A DNA stretch of 37,225 nt, from positions 1 through 37,225 of the forward strand of contig JALEVV010000045.1 in assembly GCA_022788185.1 (NCBI GenBank), in the 5' to 3' direction. The number at the start of each line of letters is the position of its first letter. The stretch's first letter is position 1. The DNA comes from Spirochaetales bacterium (GTDB taxonomy: Bacteria; Spirochaetota; Spirochaetia; Sphaerochaetales; Sphaerochaetaceae). Below the pieces are notes generated by a model. That model made no database searches. It saw nothing but the letters and a program-made list of their open reading frames with translations, and had not been told where the DNA came from. Positions 16,468 through 23,323 of this stretch are shown here, one piece after another. A program made the position numbers and the translations under genes.

Positions 16468-17259
16468 TTACCTCTTCACAAAACACTTCTGAGGACAGGC
16501 CTGGGAAGCGGCCTCAAGCTCGGAAGTATCCTTTGAGTAATCGATCCTTGAGAGGAAGTTCTCAACGACACAGCCTGATGCGGGGAACTTGTTCTGACAG
16601 ATCCTGCAGCCGATACAGCCTGCCTGACATGCCTTCTTGACCTTGGCTCCCATCTCGTGGTTGTTGCATGCGACAACCATCTTTGCCGATGCCGGAATCA
16701 TCTTTATGACGCCGGTGGGACATACGGTCGTGCACTTCCTGCAGCCGATGCACTTCTCGGGATCGACACTGATCATGTTCTTCTCATCACGGCTGATGGC
16801 ACCTGCGGGACAGACGCTCATGCAGGAACCGAGGTGAAGACAGCCCTCCTTACAGGCATTGGGTCCTGCCTGCAGGAGGTATGCCGCATTACAGTCCTGA
16901 ATGCCCCTGTATGCGAAGCTCTGAACCGTGATTTCAGCGTTTCCCTGACAGTGGACTAAGGCAACCATGCGCTCCTTCTCACTGACTGAGACACCCATGA
17001 TCTCACCCATCTTCTTTGAAAGCGCGCTTCCGCCGGGGGAACAGAGACCGATCTCGGCCTCACCCGAACAGACTGCAGCCGCATAGGCCGCACATCCGGC
17101 ATAGCCACAGCCGCCGCAGTTGGCGCCGGGCATGACTGCTTCCATCTTTACGAGCTTCTCGTCCTTTTCGACGCTGAGCTTCTTATCTGCAACTGCAAGA
17201 CCGAGTCCGAGGAGAAGGCCAAGGACCGCAATGACGATGATTGCTGCGATTATTTCCAT
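16468..17259 (-). CDS. rnfB: Rnf complex subunit B (iron-sulfur protein)
   Basis: Electron-entry subunit of the ion-translocating ferredoxin:NAD oxidoreductase. The 263-residue protein has an N-terminal membrane helix (about 3-24), then the Cys-rich CGGCGYAGC motif with a later LCSPGG, and ferredoxin-type 4Fe-4S motifs: [15 protein letters not shown], [12 protein letters not shown] and [16 protein letters not shown]. Order, length and motifs match RnfB. The upstream gap to rnfA is only 14 nt and carries GGAGGAAG as a ribosome binding site. It is the last rnf gene, and the transcript runs on into the GH57 gene. Confidence 0.95.
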
Positions 17260-17273
17260 AGTATTCTTCCTCC

Positions 17274-17873
17274 TTATACCAGATGCAGATTTGTGATAAG
17301 CGACTTGTCGAAGGCCATGAAGGCAAGTGCCATGAGACCTGCGGAGATGAATGCGATGGGAATACCCCTATAGGACTTCCTCACCGGTGTCATTTCCAGC
17401 TTCTCACGGATATTGCTCATCAGGACGATGGCAAGGGTGAAGCCGAGACCTGCGGCAAGCCCTGCGAAGAAGCTCTGCAGCAGGTTGTAGCCCTCATCGA
17501 TGTTGATGATCGCGATACCGAGAACCGCACAGTTCGTGGTGATGAGCGGGAGGAAGATACCCAGGGCCTTGTAGAGCGCAGGGCTCATCTTCCTGACCAC
17601 CATCTCGACAAGCTGTACGAGGGCAGCGATGACCAGGATGAATGCGACGGTCTTGAGATACTCGATTCCGAAGGGAACAAGCAGGAAGTAGTAGACCATG
17701 TAACACACGACGGAGGCTACTGCCGTGACGAACGTCACCGCCATGCCCATTCCGATGGCTGATTCACTGTTCTTCGAAACACCGATGAAGGGGCAGAGGC
17801 CCATGAACTGGACCAGGATGAAGTTCTGTACGAATACATATGTGATGATTATTCCGATATAACTCATGATCAA
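17274..17873 (-). CDS. rnfA: Rnf complex subunit A (membrane protein)
   Basis: A 199-residue integral membrane subunit with six helices. It contains [20 protein letters not shown] near the N-terminus and the central [15 protein letters not shown] motif. RnfA and RnfE are homologous inverted-topology proteins that together hold a membrane iron-sulfur centre through conserved cysteines, such as the ones in GLCPF and TNCAV here. The start overlaps the rnfE stop (ATGA). Length and motifs match the family. Confidence 0.95.
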
Positions 17874-18505
17874 GCCCTCCCGGCCTTTCTGTCACCCATC
17901 CAGTTGAAGAACGCCTTCAGGTAGCCCATGACGAGCAGCGCACCGGCGGCCAGGGTCATTACCCTGATCGGGGATGAGCTGAGTCCGGGCAGGGTGATGA
18001 TTACCCTTGCGCTCTCACTGAGATTGATGAGTGTGATCTGTCCTGCACCGAGGATCTCCCTGATGGCCGCGATGAGGCAGAGAGAAAGGGTGAAGCCGAT
18101 TCCCATGCCGATGGCATCGAGGGCGGAGTCGAGCACGGTGTTCTTGTTTGCGAACGCCTCGGCACGTCCGAGGATGATGCAGTTTACGACGATGAGCGGC
18201 AGGTACACGCCGAGGGCTGAATAGACAGCCGGCACGTAGGCGTGCATCACCATCTCAACGATCGTTACGAACGATGCGATGATTACGATGTAGGCGGGGA
18301 TTCTGATTGAATCAGGGATGACCTTCCTCAAAAGCGAGATGAGTATGTTGGAGCAGAGGAGTACGAAGATTACACCGGCTCCCATACCGATCGCATTGAA
18401 GACCTGAGTCGTTACACCCAGGGTGGGACACATGCCCAGCATGATGATGAATACCGGGTTTTCCCTGAAAATGCCTTTAGTTAGTTCCTTGGTATGTGAC
18501 ATCAT
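17870..18505 (-). CDS. rnfE: Rnf complex subunit E (membrane protein)
   Basis: A 211-residue membrane subunit, homologous to RnfA. It has ENPVFIIMLGMCPTLGVTT near the N-terminus and YLPLIVVNCIILGRAEAFA in the middle, each with the conserved cysteine of the pair. Six hydrophobic segments are visible, followed by a basic C-terminus (GDRKAGRA). It overlaps rnfG upstream and rnfA downstream by 4 nt each, so the subunits are translationally coupled. Confidence 0.95.
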   Translation of the reverse strand: MMSHTKELTKGIFRENPVFIIMLGMCPTLGVTTQVFNAIGMGAGVIFVLLCSNILISLLRKVIPDSIRIPAYIVIIASFVTIVEMVMHAYVPAVYSALGVYLPLIVVNCIILGRAEAFANKNTVLDSALDAIGMGIGFTLSLCLIAAIREILGAGQITLINLSESARVIITLPGLSSSPIRVMTLAAGALLVMGYLKAFFNWMGDRKAGRA

Positions 18506-19050
18506 TTACCTCCCAGGCCCTTCACGTATTCAGAGCCCTGACGGATAGCACCGGAAACACCGGTGAAGGTGACAGTTGCACCTGACACGAGCGAAGGATC
18601 GGCAAGATCGTTCTTGGATGAGGGAAGGGGCTTTGCACCTCCGAGGCCCTCGAACTGAGCCATGTACCAGCTCTCCTCACTCTTCTTTCCGAGTCCCGGA
18701 GTCTCACTGTTAGCCATCATCTTGGCACCGATGACAGCGCCGTCGGTGTCATAGGATGCGACGAGAGTGATGGGACCGCCGTAACCGTTTGAGGTGATCT
18801 CGAGGACGTAGCCCTTAATCTCCTTGCCTTCAACGAGCGTGATGCTGTAGTTGATGCCGGCCCCGTTTCCTTCCCTCTTCTCTCCGAGGTCGAAACCGCC
18901 GCTGATGTCCATCAGGGCAGCACTGGTCTCCTTCAGGGCATTGGCCGCGATCTGGGGAGCAGTGATGGCATTGATGCCTGCCAGAAGTCCCGCTGCAACG
19001 GCACAGATACAGAACAGGACTGATGCGATCTTAAGATACTGTTTCATCAC
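18502..19050 (-). CDS. rnfG: Rnf complex subunit G (covalent FMN protein)
   Basis: A 182-residue periplasmic flavoprotein with one N-terminal membrane anchor (about residues 6-28). The FMN-binding domain ends in LVSGATVTFTG, where the Thr of SGAT is the known site for covalent FMN added by ApbE through a phosphoester bond. A conserved SETPGLG motif lies upstream. The protein is of normal size, so the enlargement in this operon is confined to rnfD. No apbE gene is present in this window. Confidence 0.94.
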   Translation of the reverse strand: MMKQYLKIASVLFCICAVAAGLLAGINAITAPQIAANALKETSAALMDISGGFDLGEKREGNGAGINYSITLVEGKEIKGYVLEITSNGYGGPITLVASYDTDGAVIGAKMMANSETPGLGKKSEESWYMAQFEGLGGAKPLPSSKNDLADPSLVSGATVTFTGVSGAIRQGSEYVKGLGGK

Positions 19051-22019
19051 TTCTTCTCCTTTACAGGCTTAACATAGCCGAACTTCTTCGGCCTGATGTA
19101 CCTGTCGATCGTCGGTGTGACGATGTTCATCAGGATGATTGCAAGGGATGTACCCTCGGGGAGGGATCCGAAATACCTGAAGAGGAAGGTCAGGAAGCCG
19201 CAGCCTGCTGCGAAGATGACCTGTCCCTTTATTGTGGTGGGTGTGGTTACCCAGTCGGTTGCCATGAAGAAGGCACCGAGCATGAGACCGCCGGTGAAGA
19301 GCGGGGTCAGGATCTCACCATGGAAGAGGCCCATGCCTGCGGGAATTCCGCCGAAGATCCAGGCAAGCAGTGCGAAGGATCCGATGTAGACGACGGGAAT
19401 GTGCCAGGTGATGATGCCTGCGGCGATGAGGAAGATTCCGCCCACGATGAGAAGCAGTGCACTGACTTCACCGATACATCCGGCCTGATTACCGAAAAAG
19501 GCATCGATCGTGTACGGTGAAAGACCGGTCTTCTCACTTAAGGAAGCGGCCATCGGGGTAACGGGCACGTTTGCACCTGAGAGGCGTGAGTCGATCGAAC
19601 CGGAGGCGCCGCCGACCAGAGCCGTCTTGGCTGCGGAAAGCATCGTGGCACCGGATACGGTATCGACAGCGGAATACTCACTTATGAAAGTGCTTACCTC
19701 GGATGCGAGGACCGCATTGATGAGATCATGGTAGTTGTCGTTGATTTTTGAGGGCAGCTCGAACTCATAGTACGTCGCACCGGCAAAGTGACGGGCACCG
19801 CCGAAGAGGTCAGGGTACTTTGCGATGATGCCGTCTGCCCATGCGCCCATCTCCTCAACGGGGATTCTGTCGACGGGGTAATCGACGGTGACGAATTTGT
19901 TGGCGATTGAGGTGGCACCGGAGAAATCACCGGCAGTGTACTCAACACCGGAGATCTTCGTTGCGGAGGATACCGCATCGACCAGGACCACATCGGCCTT
20001 CATGACGCTTTCAAGCTCTGCCTTCAGGAGGGACACAAGTCCGTCGTGGTAAGCATCCTTGATCTTTTCGGGGAAGACGAACTCGATGTTGGAGTCGTTG
20101 AAGAAGTACGTGACGCCGTTGAAGAGGCCGGGGTAATCGGCGATGATGCCGTCTGCCCAGGCGCTCATGTCAGCCTGAGTTAGTCTGTCGGTCTGGTAAT
20201 CAACGGTTACATACCTGTTTGCGATAGCGATCGTGCCGCCGAAACCGCTGGGCTGGAAGGTCTGCTTGGTTGCGGCCGATACGGCATCAACCACGGCATT
20301 CTTCCTGATGAGCTTTGAAAGCTCTGTTTCCACGATGGAGCATACCATGTCGTGGTAGTCGTTTCCGAGGGTGTCGTAAAGCTCGATCTCGATGTTTCCG
20401 TTGCCGCCCGATACGGATGCGCCCTCGAAGAAGACCGTGTAATCGTCCTCAAGGGAGGCGACGAACTTCTGAATCATTTCGTCGGAGATGATCTCTGCAG
20501 GATAGGTGACGGTAACATACTTATCGGTGATGGAGACGCCTGCGCTGTATCCTGACTCGTCGAATGTGAGGTCCGTGGTCTTGGTTGCACCGCTGGTGGC
20601 ATCGACCTCACCCGTGACGAGCTCTGCAAGTCTTGTGCGGATGAAGGAGATCATGGGAGCATGCATTTTCTCGGGAAGTGCGTCGGCAAGCTCCAGCTCG
20701 TAATATCCCCTGCCCTCGAAGTGGCCTGCGCCCTCAAAGAGCTCAGGATAGGAATCGATGAGGCCATCGGCCCATGCGGAGAACTCTGCGGCTCCGAGGC
20801 CTTCGGGATAGTCAATGGTAATGTACTGGTTCGTGATGGAAATCGATCCGCCGAAGCCGCTGTCAGCAGTGGTGGAAACGGTTGCGGAAGATACCGCATC
20901 TGCTTCCTCATCCTCTGCCGCAGATCCGATCAGGGATACGATCTCGCCCTTCACTACCGAGTTATAGAGGTCATGGAGGTTATCGCCGATCTTCTCAGGA
21001 AGGCTGAACTCATAGTAACCGCCTTTGCCGACAAAGTGCGTTGCACCGGCAAAAAGCTCGGGATAGGAAACGATGACGCCGTCCGCCCAGCGGGCCATGT
21101 CATCGGCAGTGAACCTGTCAGCGGGGTAATCGACGGTGATGAACTTATTGGCAATCGTCGTCTTTCCCTCGAAGCCGTCTGCACGGTAGCTTACGCCGCT
21201 GATCTTCGTGGCGGCGGAAACCGCATCCGCGGCAGGCGCAATGGCAAGGTAGTTGGAAATCTCGGTGCGGATGATCGAGATGATTCCCTTATGGTAGAGA
21301 TCGTTGATCTTTGAGGGGAACTCGAACTCGAGGATGCCGGAGCTGTTGAAGAAGTGTGTGACGCCGGAGAAAACCTCGGGGTACTTGGCGATGACCGCAT
21401 CGGCCCAGGCTGAGATGTCATCCTGGCCGTAACCGGCGGGGAAATCAACCTGAACGAACTTGTTTGCGATTATGATCATGCCGCCCTGACCGTTGGGCTC
21501 AGCCGTCGTGAGCGTGGCTGCCGATACCTCATCAGCACTCTGAACGATGGCCTCCTGAGTGCGTCCGGGAAGCACGTAATCGGTCTGAAGCGCTCCTGGG
21601 AGCACGAATGTGCTCATCAGGGTCGTGAAGCTGAAGAAGACGAAGACACGTCCCGCAAGGGCCGGGTTCATCCAGTTGCAGCCAAGACCGCCGAAGGTCC
21701 ACTTGACGACGAGGATGGCGAATACGGATGCGAGCACGGGCACGTAAAGGGGCACCGTGGGAGGCATGTTCATGCCTATCAGAAGACCGGTGACCAGCGC
21801 GGAGCCGTCACTGAGGGTCTTTTCCTTACTGACAAGTCCAAGAAGGTACTCGGTCAGGAGGGATGAGGCGATGGATACGAGCAGTACGATAAGCGCGCTG
21901 AGTCCGAAGGACCAGACGCCCCAGGCCGCTGCGGGAAGCAGTGCGCAGGTGACGAGCAGCATGCTCCGTCTTATCGAATTGCCGGAATGTACGTGAGGAC
22001 TTACTGAAACGGTTTTCAT
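19047..22019 (-). CDS. rnfD: Rnf complex subunit D, giant form with six periplasmic repeats
   Basis: RnfD is the membrane subunit that carries a covalent FMN; family members are about 320-360 residues, but this one has 990. Residues 1-140 are the normal N-terminal helices, including GLGCNWMNPALAGR, and residues 793-990 are the normal C-terminal half (IGEVSALLLIVGG, then MATDWVTTPTT). Between them, residues 163-792 form an array of six repeats of 99-109 residues bounded by seven D-x-x-S-(G/A/S)-A-T motifs, with Thr at 169, 271, 380, 479, 584, 687 and 792. The last, DTVSGATMLS, occupies the position of the ordinary FMN site. The insert is in the periplasmic loop, the side where ApbE acts. The frame is open throughout with normal codon use, and both ends overlap rnfC and rnfG by 4 nt, so this is a real gene. 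Confidence 0.95.
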   Translation of the reverse strand: MKTVSVSPHVHSGNSIRRSMLLVTCALLPAAAWGVWSFGLSALIVLLVSIASSLLTEYLLGLVSKEKTLSDGSALVTGLLIGMNMPPTVPLYVPVLASVFAILVVKWTFGGLGCNWMNPALAGRVFVFFSFTTLMSTFVLPGALQTDYVLPGRTQEAIVQSADEVSAATLTTAEPNGQGGMIIIANKFVQVDFPAGYGQDDISAWADAVIAKYPEVFSGVTHFFNSSGILEFEFPSKINDLYHKGIISIIRTEISNYLAIAPAADAVSAATKISGVSYRADGFEGKTTIANKFITVDYPADRFTADDMARWADGVIVSYPELFAGATHFVGKGGYYEFSLPEKIGDNLHDLYNSVVKGEIVSLIGSAAEDEEADAVSSATVSTTADSGFGGSISITNQYITIDYPEGLGAAEFSAWADGLIDSYPELFEGAGHFEGRGYYELELADALPEKMHAPMISFIRTRLAELVTGEVDATSGATKTTDLTFDESGYSAGVSITDKYVTVTYPAEIISDEMIQKFVASLEDDYTVFFEGASVSGGNGNIEIELYDTLGNDYHDMVCSIVETELSKLIRKNAVVDAVSAATKQTFQPSGFGGTIAIANRYVTVDYQTDRLTQADMSAWADGIIADYPGLFNGVTYFFNDSNIEFVFPEKIKDAYHDGLVSLLKAELESVMKADVVLVDAVSSATKISGVEYTAGDFSGATSIANKFVTVDYPVDRIPVEEMGAWADGIIAKYPDLFGGARHFAGATYYEFELPSKINDNYHDLINAVLASEVSTFISEYSAVDTVSGATMLSAAKTALVGGASGSIDSRLSGANVPVTPMAASLSEKTGLSPYTIDAFFGNQAGCIGEVSALLLIVGGIFLIAAGIITWHIPVVYIGSFALLAWIFGGIPAGMGLFHGEILTPLFTGGLMLGAFFMATDWVTTPTTIKGQVIFAAGCGFLTFLFRYFGSLPEGTSLAIILMNIVTPTIDRYIRPKKFGYVKPVKEKK
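19644..21533 (-). repeat. Six tandem ~310-bp coding repeats inside rnfD
   Basis: The repeats lie between seven motif copies: DEVSAAT, DAVSAAT, DAVSSAT, DATSGAT, DAVSAAT, DAVSSAT and DTVSGAT. Thr codons begin at 21515, 21209, 20882, 20585, 20270, 19961 and 19646. Unit lengths are 102, 109, 99, 105, 103 and 105 residues. Each unit has a strand like IANKFVTVDYP, a helix like WADGIIAKYPDLF, a GAxHF segment, a strand like YYEFELPSKI, and a helix starting YHD before the next motif. Every motif keeps Asp, Ser, Ala and Thr, and also Ser/Thr three residues after the key Thr. Unit 4 is the most divergent; units 2 and 6 both begin KISGV. Confidence 0.95.
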
Positions 22020-23323
22020 TTTTTTCTCCCCATTTTCTTACCGAGTTTGAAACCCTGGACGAGCGGAAGGTGGGCCGGACAGATATATGCACAGCAGCCG
22101 CATTCCTTACAGTCCATGAGTCCGAGCTCCATGGCTGTCTGGTAGTTTCCGTACCTGATGTTCCTGAACATCTTGTTGGGCATGAGGCCCATCGGGCAGT
22201 GCTGGACGCACTGGCCGCATGATACGCAGACTCCGGTGTCGATCTTCACCGGAAGGAGTGCAAGGATTCCGGAGGAGCCCTTGGTGACGGGCGTGTCCTC
22301 GTCGGCAAAGGCAAAGCCCATCATGGGACCGCCTGAAACCAGCTCGCCGATCTCCTCCGTATTGTATCCGCCTGCAGCGGCGATCAGGTCGGAGGTCTTC
22401 GTTCCGATCGGGGCAAGGAAGTTGCCCGGCTTCGTTATGCCCTCACCGCTGACGGTGATGATTCTCTCGATCAGGGGCTTATGGAAGACCGCGGCTTCAT
22501 AGACCGCATATGTGGTTCCGATGTTGCATACCACTGCACCGATGTCGATCGGAAGCTTTCCTGAGGGAATCTCACGTCCGATCGTGGCCTTCAGAAGCTG
22601 CTTTTCATCGCCCTGGGGATACTTCATCTTCAGTGTCATGACCTCGATGGGATATCCCTTGACGGAGATGAGCTCCTCAAGGTGCTTTATGGCATCGGGT
22701 TTGTTTGCCTCGACGCCGATGATTATCTTTTTGGGAGAAAGAATCCGGTTAAGGACCATGATTCCATCAAGGGCACCCTCTGCCCTTTCCATCATCAGAC
22801 GGTAATCGGCGGTGAGATAGGGCTCACACTCGACTCCGTTGATCACAAGCACATCGACGCTCTTGCCGGTGGGGATCGAAAGCTTGACCGATGTGGGGAA
22901 CGTGGCACCGCCCATACCGACTATGCCCATGTCCTTCACGAGGCCCAGAAGCTCGGCCGGGGTATTCTCCTGCCAGTCATATTTCTTCTGATACATCTCG
23001 GGCTGTACTTCATCGCTTTTGATGACAAGTGCGTCCGCAACGGCACCGCTGGCCAAACGAACCTTTCTTACATCAGCTACGACACCGGAAACCGGACTGT
23101 GGACGTCTGCTGAGATGAAAGAAGCTGCCTGACCCACCTTCTCGCCCTTCTCAACCCTGTCTCCCTTCTTCTTAAGGCACGCTGCAGGTGCACCGAGATG
23201 CTGGGACATAGAGACGACCAGTTCGGACGGAACGGGAAGAACCTGGATCCTTCCCTCTTTAGCCAGAGACTTCTTATCGGCAGGATGCACGCCACCTCTT
23301 CTGAATGTGGAAATCCGACCCAT
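22016..23323 (-). CDS. rnfC: Rnf complex subunit C (NADH-binding, iron-sulfur)
   Basis: Peripheral cytoplasmic subunit that binds FMN and NADH and passes electrons to or from the membrane part. The 435-residue protein shows the N-terminal FRRGGVHP motif, the Nqo1-like nucleotide region GMGGATFPTSVKL and INGVECEPYLTADYRLM, and two C-terminal 4Fe-4S motifs, CVSCGQCVQHCP and CKECGCCAYICP. It ends in a basic tail (KLGKKMGRKK). The ATG has AAGGAG 6 nt upstream. It is the first gene of the rnf operon (C-D-G-E-A-B order, the usual one), behind a putative promoter at 23359-23387. Confidence 0.96.
   Translation of the reverse strand: MGRISTFRRGGVHPADKKSLAKEGRIQVLPVPSELVVSMSQHLGAPAACLKKKGDRVEKGEKVGQAASFISADVHSPVSGVVADVRKVRLASGAVADALVIKSDEVQPEMYQKKYDWQENTPAELLGLVKDMGIVGMGGATFPTSVKLSIPTGKSVDVLVINGVECEPYLTADYRLMMERAEGALDGIMVLNRILSPKKIIIGVEANKPDAIKHLEELISVKGYPIEVMTLKMKYPQGDEKQLLKATIGREIPSGKLPIDIGAVVCNIGTTYAVYEAAVFHKPLIERIITVSGEGITKPGNFLAPIGTKTSDLIAAAGGYNTEEIGELVSGGPMMGFAFADEDTPVTKGSSGILALLPVKIDTGVCVSCGQCVQHCPMGLMPNKMFRNIRYGNYQTAMELGLMDCKECGCCAYICPAHLPLVQGFKLGKKMGRKK

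Follow-up and report, generated by a model that had tools for sequence, protein, structure and literature searches.

The RNF complex is an ion pump in which electrons are reported to pass, on the periplasmic side, from the flavin mononucleotide (FMN) of RnfG to that of RnfD (PMC12174285). Multi-flavinylated RnfGs are known in RNF clusters, some with multihaem domains (Meheust 2021, PMC8238504), and these, along with beads-on-a-string multi-FMN proteins, have already been published (PMC8238504, PMC11334425, PMC10339131). A peptide of only seven residues is reported to be enough for flavin attachment by ApbE (PMC12052999). Here we describe an RnfD in which the intact core is interrupted by six related units and seven D-x-x-S-[G/A/S]-A-T motifs. 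It is encoded on a 37,225-nucleotide stretch of DNA from a Spirochaetales bacterium of the family Sphaerochaetaceae (GenBank assembly GCA_022788185.1, contig JALEVV010000045.1, positions 1 to 37,225), referred to in full as the window. The array looks like a natural 'flavin-tag' chain within the RnfD periplasmic loop, and the Rnf pump of a small group of gut spirochaetes may thus carry a built-in flavin string that moves or holds electrons beyond the membrane.

A giant RnfD with a repeated motif

The rnfD gene lies at 19047..22019 on the minus strand, as do all window features named below, with its ATG at 22019 and its stop at 19047; the position, strand and length of 990 amino acids (aa) given by the initial annotation are correct. 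Its identity as RnfD is borne out by matches to TIGR01946 (292.8 bits against a cut-off of 207.05) and PF03116 (352.9 bits), and residues 1–143 align with residues 6–149 of PDB 7zc6_D, as found for an RnfD membrane core. This match and the hydrophobic segments delimit an N-terminal membrane half of about residues 1–148 (21576..22019), while the C-terminal half comprises residues 793–990 (19050..19643). Between them, alignments and models place a periplasmic array of six alpha/beta domains and motif linkers (residues 170–785, 19665..21512); its hydropathy over 19 residues peaks at 1.16, and nothing in it resembles a transmembrane segment.

Alignment recovers the six units of 99–109 residues that had been proposed, with a motif at each boundary; in order they measure 102, 109, 99, 105, 103 and 105 residues, share 30–57% pairwise identity and score 16–43 standard deviations over shuffles. 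The motifs stand exactly where they had been placed: DEVSAAT (Thr169, 21513..21533), DAVSAAT (Thr271, 21207..21227), DAVSSAT (Thr380, 20880..20900), DATSGAT (Thr479, 20583..20603), DAVSAAT (Thr584, 20268..20288), DAVSSAT (Thr687, 19959..19979) and DTVSGAT (Thr792, residues 786–792, 19644..19664). Shuffling the array 20,000 times gives on average 0.012 D-x-x-S-[GASV]-A-T motifs and never more than 2, against the seven observed, and the pattern is present in no other stop-to-stop frame of at least 100 aa in the window; the number of motifs is far above chance. Run with periods up to 500, Tandem Repeats Finder detects no DNA tandem repeat in the window, so the repeat is old and visible in the protein alone. 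A recent DNA repeat is ruled out by this result and by the grouping of orthologous units across species.

The initial annotation took the last motif as native and the other six as extra. Motif 7 is the probable native RnfD flavin site, as its C-terminal flank (ATMLSAAKT...) resembles the ATMLSAIKT... of normal relatives, but motif 1 is also at a native-like place, directly after the N-terminal membrane half. The assignment is reasonable but not certain.

Occurrence, conservation and proposed origin of the array

A scan of GTDB r220 contigs revealed the same array in the pig-gut isolate NM-380-WT-3C1 of Bullifex porci (type strain DSM 105750) and in the metagenome-assembled genome (MAG) SUG1819. 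The giant RnfDs of the isolate and the MAG are 69 and 71% identical to the window gene, and the isolate copy lies on a 190-kb contig. A search for RnfDs above 600 residues, suggested with the initial annotation and run in the family, returned these three giants with the same array. An RnfD match at E 1e-20 is present in 135 of the 139 family genomes, of which three have a giant form (>600 aa), all in one genus; this count rests on the best RnfD frame per genome, with second copies seen only among the matches listed. Within that genus RnfD is present in 15 of 16 genomes and giant in three of the 15. A trait widespread in the family is thus not supported, and the other 55 of the 57 RnfD loci in the GTDB scan are normal, with loops (as we define them) of 55–102 aa.

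Our searches for giant RnfDs were made within the spirochaete phylum, where 392 genomes were covered and frames were read among the matches listed. Two further RnfD frames above 600 aa occur outside the family (G043, 667 aa; G048, 816 aa), but their extra length is not a loop array because the RnfD match is unbroken over about 1 kb; no motif of the seven-motif type is present in the G043 locus (L006). When 394 genomes of the class were searched with a unit-plus-motif profile, G000 and G005 alone showed arrays; G005 and G010 are the genomes of the isolate and the MAG, and G010 is outside the genomes listed.

The earlier claim that every window motif keeps Asp, Ser, Ala and Thr, with a Ser/Thr three residues on, extends to all three species: both features hold in 21 of 21 motifs (seven per species). 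Four of the seven motif columns are invariant as against three of 102 in the domain, and paralogous units range down to 23–63% identity in the three species. The motifs use six codons for Ser, drawn from both codon families, four for Thr and three for Ala. G+C content is 53% in the window and is reported as 35.9% for the B. porci genome (PMC7738495); with base composition this far apart between species, the motif has been retained through much codon change. Such a sequence pattern indicates that the motifs are under selection. The motif Asp is GAT in 21 of 21 cases, though GAC is no rarer than GAT in the window gene (29 vs 28; motifs at 19644–21533).

In a tree of the membrane parts the three giants group together (support 100/99; 99 in a quick tree). 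The units cluster by position across species, and hence the six units predate the divergence of the species. The pairing of unit 1 with unit 5, and of 2 with 6, suggests an old block duplication, some of the forks having moderate support.

The initial annotation implied repeated FMN domains, which is not what the profiles reveal. Its suggested Pfam search gave no full-domain FMN_bind match in any of the 18 units of the three species. FMN_bind (PF04205) is matched in eight of the 18, one of them above the cut-off (24.2 vs 22 bits) and that over only 15 motif residues (profile 53–67 of 77); the longest match (20.3 bits, under the cut-off) covers profile positions 35–67 and extends over 53 residues, and the whole window RnfD scores 18.8 bits. 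With hhalign, the units match an extracytosolic domain of the family (A5) at 98.3% (E 1.1e-14, 86 columns) as against 13.7% for the FMN_bind domain of RnfG. FMN_bind repeats are ruled out by these Pfam results and by this difference, and each unit is best described as a surface domain of a generic type with an ApbE-type peptide after it, since the profile evidence joins the units to A5 and not to FMN_bind. Multi-flavinylated proteins are defined by more than one FMN-binding domain (Meheust 2021), which the giant RnfD lacks; it may nevertheless work like one.

Among the 139 family genomes, 21 have matches to the unit profile, and 18 of these lack the array. Outside RnfD the matches fall in 25 distinct frames (29 listed, of which four are repeats). 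Most contain one to three clear copies, and the frames, nine of them also compared with Pfam, belong to lipoprotein-like, 5'-nucleotidase-like and large surface proteins. The motif D-x-x-[ST]-[GASV]-A-[ST] is absent from all 25, and A5-type domains elsewhere are often connected by Ala/Pro/Glu-rich linkers. The A5 domain itself (loci L029–L055) is alpha/beta and has no consistent Pfam match (best 3.8e-4, three of 34 members).

We propose that a normal RnfD gained, in its FMN-bearing periplasmic loop, one small alpha/beta surface domain of the kind found in lipoproteins of the family. The domain would have been inserted between two motif copies, with unequal recombination then giving six domains and seven motifs, so that the module of ApbE target peptide plus domain would have multiplied to its present number before the three species separated. 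We infer the order of these steps, as well as the extra-site flavinylation, the electron flow, its direction and the acceptor considered below.

Several normal relatives have doubled motif-like stretches in this loop (L075, L061); in the RnfD at L075:7879-8982 (+) two such stretches lie back to back (DRVSSASVDSLTSAT), possibly an early motif-duplication step. Two other family members (L058:2340-3803, +; L060:2118-3413, -) have, immediately ahead of the native motif, long Ala/Ser/Thr-rich runs (VAAAST and TSAATSMA types). A 533-aa frame in G033 (L059:1614-3212, minus) fuses RnfD to an RnfG-like FMN domain, and frames of 521–569 aa in G146–G148, G151, G154 and G158–G160 suggest, by their length, further RnfD–RnfG fusions.

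Possible flavin attachment and electron flow

The giant RnfD is part of a complete and compact rnfCDGEAB operon with all six families in order, of which five exceed their NCBIfam cut-offs: rnfC (22016..23323; TIGR01945, 502.9 bits vs 245.95), rnfD, rnfG (18502..19050), rnfE (17870..18505; TIGR01948, 242.1 vs 213.4), rnfA (17274..17873; TIGR01943, 266.3 vs 229.3) and rnfB (16468..17259; TIGR01944, 92.9 vs 68.7). The rnfC/rnfD and rnfD/rnfG pairs overlap by four bases. RnfG reaches 82.3 bits with TIGR01947, under the cut-off of 102, yet passes that of PF04205 (46.7 vs 22 bits) with a single FMN_bind domain and SLVSGAT. Its motif reads in full DPSLVSGAT, with Asp two residues earlier than in the usual ApbE spacing, and DPSxVSGA[ST] occurs in 10 of the 14 RnfGs of relatives listed.

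An ApbE gene is present elsewhere in the genome. The models show folded beads joined by low-confidence linkers, and each of the seven motifs overlaps such a linker. Some or all of the extra Thr probably receive FMN from ApbE because these peptides appear exposed in the linkers and seven residues are reported to suffice. With units that are not FMN_bind and motifs in low-confidence linkers, pocket-bound flavins of the kind seen in known multi-FMN proteins are not to be assumed. The ApbE consensus is D-x-x-[S/T]-G-A-[S/T], and D, S, A and T are present in seven of seven window motifs, with G at position five in two. Directly upstream of full-length apbE in the same genome is a gene (L129:2935-4098, +) whose product is apparently secreted and has two repeats and one DLASSAT motif; Pfam gives nothing convincing for this protein and NCBIfam no match, and it is a possible further ApbE substrate. 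A short ApbE-like protein (L130:1173-1874, +) covers only profile positions 135–199 of 266 and looks truncated or degenerate.

The reading that we favour as the best explanation of the whole, with a probability of about 0.55, is a multi-flavin tether through which electrons would branch from Rnf into the periplasm. A beads-on-a-string flavin chain would be rooted beside the FMNs of RnfG and RnfD; electrons would leave Rnf at the periplasmic side, hop between mobile flavins and go to some periplasmic or envelope acceptor. The fuller picture, a natural flavin wire of domains with no known flavin pocket joined by bare ApbE peptides, grown inside an ion-pumping subunit and forming a covalent, mobile seven-flavin side exit, we put forward more tentatively, at somewhat less than even odds; we have seen no description of such a principle. 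The genome gave no match to PF01578, the single family for cytochrome c assembly that was looked for.

Several points weigh against the tether. Position five is A or S in five of the seven window motifs, and a G-to-A change there in one other protein is reported to reduce flavinylation to about half (PMC12052999). This objection is offset by the normal RnfDs of relatives, 46 of 55 of which have S as the fifth residue of their first motif-like stretch; at position four only 35 of the 55 have Ser/Thr, and the native motif is therefore looser than that of the array. Motifs in surface loops are reported to be flavinylated less fully than those at protein ends (PMC12052999), the full-length ApbE gene (193 bits) lies on another contig, and FMN on the extra Thr is a prediction made here from genes. 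Models with the extra motifs buried would have refuted the initial annotation; the motifs overlap low-confidence linkers between the beads, but motif 7 has some helix, and in the full model the predicted local distance difference test score (pLDDT) is below 50 for its first five residues alone. Low pLDDT is in any case not proof of flexible linkers, and bead positions relative to each other are not reliable (predicted template modelling score 0.41). The units have no known flavin pocket, and no evident acceptor gene is found among the window's translated frames.

The lack of a known pocket also fits a reading in which the native Thr alone is flavinylated and the array serves as a spacer or envelope-binding arm, its peptide kept for a non-flavin reason such as hinge geometry or ApbE docking. 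The same domain occurs in lipoproteins and 5'-nucleotidase-like surface proteins that lack flavin motifs, and the FMN_bind matches from Pfam lie mainly around the motif stretch. A hinge, however, would have no need of the exact D, S, A and T of an ApbE site, kept in all 21 linkers through codon turnover, and many domains of this type elsewhere make do with Ala/Pro/Glu-rich linkers; we consider this alternative unlikely, though the strongest of the rivals.

Scarcely behind it, and also unlikely, is an electron store in which extra FMNs are loaded and unloaded by RnfG and RnfD and buffer the pump with no outside acceptor. It draws on the same sequence evidence as the tether, on the covalent continuity of the array with RnfD and on the lack of an evident acceptor gene in the window. 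The array is rooted at the RnfG-to-RnfD FMN transfer site, and a chain of mobile flavins could either carry electrons outward or hold them. Against a store, covalent FMNs of a multi-FMN protein are reported at -184 mV (PMC10339131) and nicotinamide adenine dinucleotide (NAD+) at -320 mV (PMC12174285), so if the extra FMNs resemble those of that other protein, return to NAD+ would be difficult and the outward branch is favoured by analogy. That the chain is instead an ApbE flavin depot or decoy, storing or trapping FMN rather than transferring electrons, is improbable: it has many target peptides per protein in low-confidence model linkers, but a depot would not need a place in a core redox subunit at that subunit's own flavin site. 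An assembly or annotation artefact, conceivable for a window from a 90-contig assembly, is ruled out by the diverged copies in the isolate and the second MAG, whose orthologous units cluster by position.

Comparison with known systems

The initial annotation knew of no RnfD of this kind, and we found none with repeated motifs in open-access PMC text, the part of the literature searched, with subscription papers and supplements outside it. As far as we have seen, the subunit (RnfD), the place (inside the flavin loop of the pump) and the building block (a non-FMN_bind domain) are apparently new. If the extra sites carry FMN, this would be the first RnfD with a multi-flavin arm in the literature covered, Rnf would gain an electron side exit through a core subunit, and multi-flavin proteins could arise from ApbE peptides and unrelated domains, in which case surveys that count FMN_bind domains miss some. 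Flavinylation of bare linkers, if shown, would approach a new kind of system; the cultured type strain B. porci DSM 105750 makes the flavin-arm idea testable.

Canonical RnfD/NqrB (TIGR01946, PF03116; PDB 8ahx, 9eri, 7zc6) shares with the giant form both membrane halves, the flank of the native flavin site and the operon; the short loop of the 55 relatives, however, stands against six inserted domains and seven motifs. Most of these normal loops have one match or none to a loose motif pattern, and 14 have two or three. The multi-flavinylated RnfGs likewise belong to RNF, are predicted to carry several covalent FMNs and have been proposed to open a side path to acceptors outside, but they were found, as reported, by counting FMN-binding domains (PMC8238504); the giant RnfD differs in subunit and in its repeat, and escapes such a count because the repeated domain is not FMN_bind. 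SaFMN3 and CbFMN4, the beads-on-a-string proteins (PMC10339131, PMC11334425), also have tandem modules, linkers and repeated ApbE motifs, their FMN being described within FMN_bind domains of an extracytosolic protein, whereas here the motifs are in linkers that join domains of a different type within an integral membrane pump subunit. The Sphaerochaetaceae surface-protein domain (A5) is homologous to the units, but its 25 frames have no ApbE motif and are not membrane redox proteins; the giant RnfD has both attributes. In flavin-tag technology, too, a bare seven-residue peptide beside or within a folded protein is the ApbE target (PMC12052999). That tag is engineered, whereas the peptides of the giant RnfD would be natural and repeated.

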